This document shows positions 20,132-23,050 of a stretch of DNA of 64,000 bases, piece by piece. The notes under the pieces are model-generated. The model was not told the DNA's origin. It worked only from the letters and a program-made list of their open reading frames with translations, and made no database searches. The stretch covers positions 1-64,000 of the forward strand of contig NZ_KB822613.1 in assembly GCF_000364625.1 (NCBI RefSeq), in the 5' to 3' direction. Each line of letters starts with the position of its first letter. Position 1 is the first letter of the stretch. Source of the stretch: Pseudomonas thermotolerans DSM 14292. Lineage in GTDB: Bacteria; Pseudomonadota; Gammaproteobacteria; Pseudomonadales; Pseudomonadaceae. A program made the position numbers and the translations under genes.

Positions 20132-20160
20132 TTAACTTTGCCCTTCCTTTCCAGTAGAAT
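20132..20160 (+). promoter_or_regulatory. Likely sigma70 promoter of acnB
   Basis: TTAACT (20132-20137) and TAGAAT (20155-20160) are 17 bp apart. If used, transcription starts near 20167 and the acnB leader is about 275 nt, containing the whole nested inverted repeat at 20192-20325. Confidence 0.5.
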
Positions 20161-20191
20161 CCCCCCGCCTCTAGAGGCGCCGATGTCCGTA

Positions 20192-20325
20192 AGAAGCTGT
20201 TTTCAAAGCGTCACGAGCACAGTTTTCTCCAGCAGGAGCACGTTGGCGCCGGATCTCCTTCCGGGTCCTGCGCGCCAACCCCGTCCACCCGCCCCTGTAA
20301 GCGTAAAACTTTGAAAACAGCTTCT
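20192..20325. repeat. Nested inverted-repeat element in the acnB leader
   Basis: Outer arms AGAAGCTGTTTTCAAAG (20192-20208) and its perfect complement CTTTGAAAACAGCTTCT (20309-20325) are 17 bp each and enclose 100 bp. Inside are a perfect 8-bp pair GTTGGCGC/GCGCCAAC (20242-20249, 20272-20279), an inner CCGGA/TCCGG hairpin (20249-20253, 20260-20264) and a small CTCC-AGCA-GGAG hairpin (20228-20238). The shape fits a MITE with terminal inverted repeats or a branched structured leader RNA. I see no target-site duplication and no second copy in the window. Confidence 0.8.
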
Positions 20326-20440
20326 GGATGGGGCCACTGAAACCATCGTTCCCCGCCCATAAGGCGATGGCGCGGATGTGTTTAGCGGTTCCCGAACGCG
20401 TCCCGGACACCCGTTGGGACCACTGATGAGGGTAATAACT

Positions 20441-23050
20441 GTGCTTGAAGCCTATCGCAAACACGTTGAAGAGCGTGCCGCTCAGGGCATCCCGCCCCAG
20501 CCGCTGAACGCCGAACAAACCGCAGGTCTGGTCGAGCTGCTGAAGAATCCCCCGGCCGGCGAGGAAGCCTATCTCGTCGACCTGATCACCAACCGCGTTC
20601 CGCCGGGTGTGGACGAGGCCGCCTACGTCAAGGCCGGTTTCCTCTCCGCGATTGCCAAGGGCGAAGCCAGTTCCCCGCTGATCGACAAGAAGCGCGCCGT
20701 CGAGCTGCTCGGCACCATGCAGGGCGGTTACAACATCGCCACCCTGGTCGACCTGCTGGACAACGCCGAACTGGCTGACGTGGCTGCCGAGCAGCTCAAG
20801 CACACCCTGCTGATGTTCGACGCCTTCCACGACGTGGCCGATAAAGCCAAGGCCGGCAACGCCGCCGCCAAGGCCGTGCTGCAGTCCTGGGCCGACGGCG
20901 AGTGGTTCACCGCCCGTCCGGCCGTACCGGAGAAGATCACCCTGACCGTGTTCAAGGTGCCCGGCGAAACCAACACCGACGACCTCTCCCCTGCTCCGGA
21001 CGCCTGGTCCCGCCCGGACATCCCGCTGCACGCCCTGGCCATGCTGAAGATGCCCCGCGACGGCATCCAGCCCGACCAGCCGGGCTCCATTGGCCCGCTG
21101 AAGCAGATCGAAGCCGCCAAGGCCAAGGGCTACCCGGTTGCCTACGTCGGCGACGTGGTCGGTACCGGTTCTTCCCGCAAGTCCGCCACCAACTCCGTGC
21201 TGTGGTTCTTCGGTGACGACATCCCCTACGTGCCGAACAAGCGCGCCGGTGGCTTCTGCTTCGGCACCAAGATCGCCCCGATCTTCTACAACACCATGGA
21301 AGACGCCGGCGCCCTGCCGATCGAATTCGACTGCACCAACCTGGCCATGGGCGACGTCATCGACGTGTACCCGACCAAGGGCGAAGTGCGCCGTCATGAC
21401 ACCGACGAGCTGGTCACCACCTTCCAGCTGAAGACCGACGTGCTGCTGGACGAAGTCCGCGCCGGCGGCCGTATCCCGCTGATCATCGGCCGTGGTCTGA
21501 CCGAGAAGGCTCGTGCAGCCCTGGGCCTGCCGCCGTCCACCCTGTTCAAGAAGCCGCAGGCTCCGGCCGACAGCGGTAAGGGCTTCACCCTGGCCCAGAA
21601 GATCGTCGGCCGCGCCTGTGGTCTGCCGGAAGGCCAGGGCGTGCGCCCGGGCACCTACTGCGAGCCGAAGATGACCACCGTCGGTTCCCAGGACACCACC
21701 GGCCCGATGACCCGCGACGAGCTGAAGGACCTGGCCTGCCTGGGCTTCTCCGCCGACCTGGTGATGCAGTCCTTCTGCCACACCGCGGCCTATCCGAAGC
21801 CGATCGACGTCAAGACCCACCACACCCTGCCGGACTTCATCATGACCCGCGGCGGCGTGTCCCTGCGTCCGGGCGACGGCATCATCCACAGCTGGCTGAA
21901 CCGCATGCTGCTGCCGGACACCGTGGGTACCGGCGGTGACTCCCACACCCGCTTCCCGATCGGTATCTCCTTCCCGGCCGGTTCCGGTCTGGTGGCCTTC
22001 GCCGCGGCTACCGGCGTGATGCCGCTGGACATGCCGGAGTCGGTTCTGGTGCGCTTCAAGGGCAAGATGCAGCCCGGCATCACTCTGCGTGACCTGGTGC
22101 ATGCCATCCCCTACTACGCCATCCAGCAGGGTCTGCTGACCGTCGAGAAGAAGGGCAAGAAGAACATCTTCTCCGGCCGCATCCTCGAGATCGAAGGTCT
22201 GGAAAACCTGACCGTGGAGCAGGCGTTCGAACTGTCCGACGCCTCCGCCGAACGTTCCGCCGCCGGCTGCACCATCAAGCTGTCGAAGGAATCGATCGCC
22301 GAGTACCTGAAGTCCAACATCACCATGCTGCGCTGGATGATCAGCGAAGGCTACGGCGACGCCCGTACCCTGGAGCGCCGCGCCCAGGCCATGGAAGCCT
22401 GGCTGGCCAACCCGCAACTGCTGGAAGCCGACAAGGACGCCGAATACGCTGCGGTCATCGAGATCGACCTGGCCGAGGTCAAGGAGCCCGTGCTGTGCGC
22501 CCCGAACGACCCGGACGACGCCCGCCTGCTGTCGCAGGTCGCCGGCGACAAGATCGACGAGGTGTTCATCGGTTCCTGCATGACCAACATCGGTCACTTC
22601 CGCGCGGCCGGCAAACTGCTCGAGAAGGTCAAGGGCGGCATCCCGACCCGTCTCTGGCTGGCTCCGCCGACCAAGATGGACCAGCATCAGCTGGTCGAGG
22701 AAGGCTTCTACGGCATCTACGGCAAGGCCGGCGCACGCATGGAAATGCCGGGCTGCTCGCTGTGCATGGGTAACCAGGCTCGCGTGCAGACCGGTGCAAC
22801 CGTGGTCTCCACCTCCACCCGTAACTTCCCGAACCGTCTGGGCGACTCCACCAACGTGTACCTGGCCTCCGCCGAACTGGCAGCGGTCGCCTCGATTCTC
22901 GGCAAGCTGCCGACCGTCGAGGAGTACATGGCCTACGCGAAGGATATCGACAGCATGTCTGCCGACATCTACCGCTACCTGAGCTTCGACCAGATCGCCG
23001 AGTACCGGGAAGCGGCCGAGAAGGCCAAGATCCCGGTCGTTCAGGCCTGA
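20441..23050 (+). CDS. acnB: Aconitate hydratase B
   Basis: The 869-aa TCA-cycle enzyme isomerises citrate to isocitrate via cis-aconitate and probably also hydrates 2-methyl-cis-aconitate. The HEAT-like N-terminal domain of AcnB precedes the swivel and the catalytic domains. Cluster cysteines are in [16 protein letters not shown] and [12 protein letters not shown] chose the GTG at 20441 (LEAYRKH), preceded by GAGG, because it gives the family length; an upstream in-frame ATG adds 21 unrelated residues. The long leader carries the nested inverted repeat. A terminator follows, so it is monocistronic. Confidence 0.97.

Follow-up and report, generated by a model that had tools for sequence, protein, structure and literature searches.

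The block at 20192–20325 of the window, by which we mean the whole 64,000-nucleotide stretch of Pseudomonas thermotolerans DSM 14292 analyzed here, is very probably the core of a conserved, structured, cis-regulatory leader of acnB that is found family-wide, as judged by sequence comparison. The whole explanation that we put forward, in which this family-wide leader RNA acts in cis as a bistable translational switch on acnB, has in our estimate somewhat better than even prospects, and the chances that the leader works by masking the ribosome site, as modeled, are about even. Within the genus the switch is a supported model, computed from fold and duplex energies. The switch model leaves the fixed sequence of both strands of the outer helix unaccounted for, and this fixity argues for a reader, a protein first of all.

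A nested inverted repeat between the predicted acnB promoter and start

The gene downstream of the block is an open frame on the forward strand (20441–23050) for aconitate hydratase B. Its product scores 1558.9 bits against the NCBIfam model TIGR00117 (cut-off 1287.2), and homologous N-termini follow the leader in relatives. A sigma-70-like consensus scan found one site, TTAACT-17-TAGAAT at 20132–20160 on the same strand, where 0.2 were expected in shuffles, and TAGAAT and CTTA are kept in the consensus of 90 aligned leaders; from the -10 box of this predicted promoter we infer a transcript start at about 20167. The ribosome binding site (20425–20447) comprises the Shine-Dalgarno (SD) sequence GAGGG at 20428–20432, the GTG start at 20441 and the segment i' (AACTGTGCTTG, 20437–20447).

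The earlier note had described a 17-bp perfect outer repeat enclosing a second perfect 8-bp stem between a predicted acnB promoter and the gene's start, and both repeats were found there, between the promoter-like site and the GTG. The outer arms, AGAAGCTGTTTTCAAAG (20192–20208) and CTTTGAAAACAGCTTCT (20309–20325), are perfectly complementary over 17 bp and constitute the helix P1, with pairing that continues, at 81%, out to 31 nt. Within it, the inner stem, GTTGGCGC (20242–20249) with GCGCCAAC (20272–20279), is perfect over 8 bp and corresponds to the helix P3 of the repeat search and structure counts. The region 20188–20330 folds at -56.0 kcal/mol, against -37.1 (SD 3.3) in 200 dinucleotide shuffles (z = -5.7), none of which was as low, and the opposite strand likewise gave a z of -5.7 with 0/200 shuffles as low.

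The remaining elements, all on the forward strand, are arranged around these two helices. An internal-loop strand, CGTCACGAGCACAGTT (20209–20224), follows the 5' arm of P1, is invariant in 69/69 aligned leaders up to CAGT, and contains segment i (20214–20224), a complement of 20437–20447 that was assessed in duplex tests and of which 9 bp were found by the repeat search. On the 3' side, the loop strand GCGTAAAA (20301–20308), also invariant in 69/69, leads into the 3' arm. The helix P2, drawn from structure counts and placed by eye, is represented by the remnants CAGG (20233–20236) and CCTG (20294–20297); it is badly formed in the P. thermotolerans leader and better in relatives. A further hairpin, P4 (GTCCC...GGGAC, 20400–20420), stands directly before the SD, and a short one, P0 (GCCT CTAG AGGC, 20167–20178), lies at the predicted 5' end of the transcript, with similar ones visible in many relatives; alignment folding of the leaders gave no consensus structure for P0.

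The leader is conserved at acnB across the family

The region 20145–20440 matches 197 of the 199 same-genus genomes searched, the source genome included, and the two genomes without a leader match (G069 and G133) have no acnB match either. Ninety of the 197 matching loci served as the same-genus comparison set, and 69 of the 84 distinct ones make up alignment A1. In this alignment 62 of 163 columns are invariant, and the 30-mer GAAGCTGTTTTCAAAGCGTCACGAGCACAG is identical in 90/90 same-genus loci fetched, where the core of the P1 5' arm is likewise unchanged. A leader peptide or attenuator was considered and rejected, as the frame through P1 ends at differing points, the upstream ATG is missing in several leaders and the 30-mer contains no synonymous variation.

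A covariance model, R1, built from the 69 aligned leaders matches 126 of 148 family genomes in 17 of 19 genera, own included. Twenty family genomes without an R1 match were listed, 16 of which belong to one genus (g5); eight genomes that were read, seven from g5 and G200 from g3, have acnB and lack P1. Another three genomes without an R1 match (G235, G272 and G309) have no acnB match, and G279, which gave weak R1 matches only, possesses the leader with an insert between the P1 arms. AcnB residues 1–208 had no match at E 1e-10 in G069, G133, G235, G272 and G309, and three of these five family genomes are less than 90% complete. Among 40 further loci fetched at model matches, acnB lies just downstream in 36 and the other four are weak matches; strong model matches stood before acnB in every context read. 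A pattern scan of named genomes yielded at least 80 loci, with acnB recognized by pattern in 71 and apparently present, on reading, in three more, and among the matches listed the remaining loci comprise five at a record edge and one chance match in a Bacteroidales contig.

Beyond the family, a wider search matched 16 of 293 genomes, 13 of them within the family (own included), and the stretches fetched around the matches in the three outside it (G513, G525 and G571) contain no acnB. A second wider search matched 3 of 369 genomes, one of them outside the family (G645), with no acnB there. Matches outside the family are weak and away from acnB.

Within its own assembly (75 contigs, 3.75 Mb) the block is present in a single copy; the search returned this place and the two arms matching one another, other matches being of 26 bp or less. 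The earlier note had proposed a search for further copies in this genome and in relatives. The extra matches that were read in relatives are weak and are not leaders, and beside them stand one in G204:C4, itself weak, and a third one in G224. Among the extra matches read, that in G154:C14 was considered as a leader and rejected, being a dispersed hairpin element. No match to the block was found in plasmids or in viral contigs, the two collections covered. A look for empty sites in the g5 and g3 leaders that lack P1 gave sequences not alignable through P1 by eye. Three of the seven g5 leaders read (L193, L195 and L197, each before acnB) carry a GGGAAGCACTGAATAA inverted repeat that looks like a small insertion and is absent from the other four.

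Inner helices covary and the outer helix is nearly fixed

In P2 and P3, counted on a plain MAFFT alignment of the 69 leaders, there are 82 double-changed cells, compared with a mean of 24.6 (SD 5.0) over 500 shuffles and with no more than 24 in any slid control, a count that leans in its own favor because the structure was drawn from the alignment on which it was counted. Pairs with a double change number 12, a figure that is less telling because two slid controls reach 10. P4 covaries as well, with swaps of U-A to C-G and of C-G to G-C over 63 distinct sequences. Covariation, which the earlier note had offered as a check on the arms, is found in P2, P3 and P4; P1 itself hardly varies.

The near-fixity of P1 was quantified over 130 family-wide leaders, which were chosen by a pattern holding much of P1, so that its invariance is partly by construction. 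Within the first 13 pairs only two positions vary, by a change of A to G on the 5' arm in five leaders and on the 3' arm in 55; both changes keep G-U pairs in the sense RNA and would give mismatches in an antisense RNA. Pair 14 is broken in three of the 130 leaders, and the G-C of pair 16 is replaced by A-U in three and by G-U in one, all of them from genus g7. Of 142 loci offered, 12 were skipped, namely four without acnB (L186–L189) and eight acnB leaders without P1 (seven g5, one g3), and no leader with an altered P1 is among them. P1 is also kept where the interior differs or is shorter (L172–L178, L181–L185 and L200–L202), and the outer length, confined to 122–140 bp among the 90 same-genus leaders, spans 74–258 bp among 40 others. 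Helices of conserved RNAs normally swap pairs. A helix that is near-invariant over 13–16 bp is unusual, and because both of its strands are fixed, something probably reads both.

Complementarity to the ribosome site and two computed folds

The segment immediately inside P1, CGAGCACAGU(U), complements (A)ACUGUGCUUG around the GUG; in the window the two match at 11 positions, including a single G-U. A second segment, CCCUCAUC, complements the SD region in 75/90 same-genus leaders, counted as CC[CT]TCATC between the arms; the leader of P. thermotolerans itself lacks it. When the comparison was slid along the leader, the first segment was the strongest ribosome-site complement in 47/90 same-genus leaders. 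For 42 of the 43 remaining leaders, the best window begins between 57 and 82 nt downstream of where P1 starts, which in most of these is the site of CCCUCAUC. Once the latter site is left out, the first segment ranks highest in 83/90 (median -21.1 versus -16.0 kcal/mol). Measured against dinucleotide shuffles, its pairing attains p ≤ 0.01 in 52/90 same-genus leaders and misses this level in 38/90.

In the other genera the first segment is strongest in 22/40 leaders and its pairing attains p ≤ 0.05 in 23/40. The pairing is no better than in shuffles (p > 0.05) in 17/40, all of which have P1, among them g19, six of the seven g18 leaders and three of the four from g7. In the AT-rich genus g13 both partners have changed and the pairing is kept in four of four leaders (L172–L175, p 0.007 to 0.033); by eye, one pair is swapped between L172 and L174 and one is broken in L173. 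Leaders without P1 (seven from g5, one from g3) likewise conserve the SD and the start region GTGCTTGAAGC, and hence the conservation of both needs no pairing. Codon 2 of acnB (20444–20446) is CTT in 128 of the 130 P1-bearing leaders, a count for which the extraction pattern permitted few alternatives. It is also CTT in the eight leaders without P1 (seven g5, one g3), so the early coding sequence seems to be fixed for a reason besides leader pairing.

Two folds were compared by their ensemble energies, one with P1 forced and the other, closed fold with P1 prevented by holding six bases of the 5' arm unpaired; these energies ignore pseudoknots, proteins and ligands. Among the 90 same-genus leaders the P1 fold minus the closed fold comes to -1.8 kcal/mol at the median (5–95% range, -5.3 to +2.9), and the P1 fold is favored by a median of 6.3 kcal/mol in 40 other-genus leaders and also in the P. 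thermotolerans leader (-113.7 versus -111.0). In the same-genus medians the start codon is paired at 1.00 in the closed fold versus 0.77 in the P1 fold, and SD pairing changes little, from 0.80 to 0.66. When one leader (L030) was folded at growing lengths, P1 formed once the 3' arm had been made and then persisted. A leader that would be bistable within the genus fits these calculations.

The earlier note had left open a structured leader RNA and a transposase-less element, and the former is supported by the conserved place of the block, the covarying inner helices and the complementarity to the ribosome site.

Discussion

The proposed switch would operate between the two computed folds. With P1, P2 and P3 formed, the anti-start segment would be held in the internal loop and the ribosome site would be freer, and with P1 opened the segment would pair with the SD and GUG and translation would be shut. 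The balance between the folds would be set by a factor recognizing P1 together with its loop. In this scheme P1 and the conserved loop do the sensing, and the anti-start segment provides the output. Candidate factors would be cluster-free AcnB or a small molecule of the citrate-isocitrate step, and we regard each of these effector classes, taken singly, as unlikely. P1 and the start-codon pairing could also coexist as a pseudoknot, which would give control of the opposite sign. Aconitase B, an iron-sulfur enzyme, acts near the beginning of the citric acid cycle. A leader present in 126 of 148 family genomes, with no Rfam match and unnamed in the papers searched, would be a new layer of control on the aconitase step in bacteria that have been much studied.

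One other reading is that the leader is a site for a sequence-reading protein, most simply apo-AcnB on its own mRNA, with P1 as the protein site and the ribosome-site pairing secondary; we consider this unlikely. P1 is conserved on both strands beyond the needs of pairing, and it is kept where its loop is replaced (g13, g18 and g7) or, in L192, interrupted by an insert. The obvious candidate is AcnB, since the E. coli apo-protein is reported to bind its own mRNA, at the 3' UTR (PMC7821165, in the portion available), and since the element is found with acnB alone. E. coli AcnB also enriched RNA fragments in SELEX, although the targets were poorly defined stem-loops by U-rich stretches, the binding was rather unspecific, and the acnB 3' UTR was not enriched, as far as the accessible part of that report goes (PMC10380284). 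No Rfam family matched the leader, and acnB occurs without P1 in eight genomes (seven from g5, one from g3), both of which count against a protein site.

About equally improbable is a metabolite riboswitch, with P1, P2, P3 and the conserved loop as the aptamer and the ribosome-site pairing as the expression platform. The loop strands CGTCACGAGCACAGT and GCGTAAAAC are invariant beside covarying helices in same-genus leaders, the two folds are close in energy, and a single metabolic gene is associated, all of which would suit such an element. However, the closing helix of riboswitches generally covaries and P1 hardly does, and in g7 and g18 the loop strands have changed while P1 is kept. Moreover, a metabolite screen that included P. 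aeruginosa (TPP and FMN) does not name acnB or aconitase in its main text, as a word search showed (PMC5876405).

A further influence on acnB acts in trans. Under low iron PrrF lowers acnB expression in P. aeruginosa, according to the sections consulted of PMC2851614, and the PrrF gene in the P. thermotolerans genome contains CUCCUCAUCAG, a visible complement of the acnB SD. The action of PrrF on acnB, as described there, may explain the conservation of the SD, and judging by these complementarities the closed fold of the leader and PrrF would compete for one site.

Somewhat less probable than a protein site or a riboswitch is an origin of the leader by domestication of an inserted, dispersed hairpin element, in which P1 would be the old terminal repeat kept for regulation. 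The weak matches L137 (G571) and L151 (G154, same genus) are dispersed hairpin copies, L136 (G513) is by eye a short hairpin with the same end, and L137 begins AGAAGCTGTTTCATAACGTCACGAGC / AGAAGCTGTTTCATAACGTCACGAGCG, close to the leader. The left end of the hairpin family resembles P1 of the leader plus CGTCACGAGC, and the family was found in 89/119 same-genus genomes. A look-alike with its own inverted repeat also lies, by eye, inside the leader loop of L192 (G279), where P1 is intact. A profile of 26 copies gave 19 matches on 130 related leaders versus 44 on 2,600 simple shuffles, and several of these matches are in register with P1. However, the best profile score on leaders was 5.0 bits (E 0.21), compared with 13.0 on a shuffle, and the P. 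thermotolerans genome has no match to the hairpin family at E 1e-5. The family's ends also vary between copies, and the leader look-alikes may therefore be picks from very many. Given these weak profile scores, the descent of the leader from a hairpin element is a suggestion only, and such an element is a possible ancestor. As observations on the hairpin family itself (L327–L356, L137 and L151), its copies share a core GAGCGAAGGTNAGGCAAG ... CCGAGCGCAG, their terminal repeats vary from one copy to the next, the two of any single copy looking complementary, and by eye several are embedded in palindromic, terminator-like flanks.

The boldest combination of these ideas, which we hold to be improbable, is that a hairpin element captured early in Pseudomonadaceae became the acnB switch, with its fixed helix read directly by aconitase as a bacterial 5' counterpart of the iron-responsive element. 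If true, an aconitase-read helix would couple cluster loss or citrate flux to masking of the ribosome site. Less likely still is a DNA-level role, in which a regulator would bind the arms as a pair of inverted sites and form a DNA loop at the acnB promoter. The fixed sequence of the two arms and their place downstream of the promoter would suit this, but every change in the first 13 pairs keeps pairing in the sense RNA, the outer length differs greatly among leaders (122–140 bp in the genus and 74–258 bp in the 40 other-genus ones), and the inner helices covary. Finally, a present-day MITE without a regulatory role, the other reading in the earlier note, can be dismissed, for although the terminal inverted repeats by which MITEs are recognized are present, and are perfect around a non-coding core, a single copy in its own genome is not a current MITE, and the block occupies one locus across the family with strong matches only at acnB where the context was read and with the sequence of P1 fixed.

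Comparison with known systems

Searches of Rfam 15 returned no match to the leader at the gathering threshold, the hit below it being a 13-bit match to a lncRNA model (E 2), and neither a known riboswitch family nor an iron-responsive-element model, a class that Rfam includes, matched it. In the open literature, with subscription journals and supplements outside its scope, no acnB leader RNA appeared in titles or the starts of abstracts among the matches listed, and six motif strings occur in no paper there. Within the open literature searched, the leader is thus apparently undescribed.

In the dispersed, MITE-like hairpins of Pseudomonas a CGTMRCGAGC-like motif comes after the inverted repeats of many copies; these hairpins are multi-copy with variable repeats, unlike the leader, on which their profile scores are weak. 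Translational riboswitches and other anti-SD leader switches can cover the SD and start codon by an alternative pairing. The acnB leader shares with them its 5' position, nested helices, an invariant internal loop and, as computed, an alternative pairing that could cover SD and start, but differs from them in that its P1 is nearly fixed and in that it is found in one family, before one gene only. Eukaryotic iron-responsive elements are structured regulatory RNAs bound by aconitase and are a further point of comparison for the putative AcnB site.

PrrF, like the leader, acts on acnB, but it does so in trans, and on the available part of its description it could explain the SD and not P1 or the anti-start segment (PMC2851614). 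The autoregulation of E. coli acnB through its 3' UTR likewise involves an aconitase mRNA with a structured regulatory element, as far as the part of that report used here describes it (PMC7821165); in Pseudomonas the element lies instead in the 5' leader and is a candidate protein site only. Comparable in setting are the structured RNAs of a 2010 catalog, which places icd in Pseudomonas and sucA-II in Pseudomonadales and in whose main text a word search found neither acnB nor aconitase (PMC2864571). As the entries seen there describe them, the icd and sucA-II leaders are, like the acnB leader, conserved leaders of citric-acid-cycle genes in Pseudomonas or its order.
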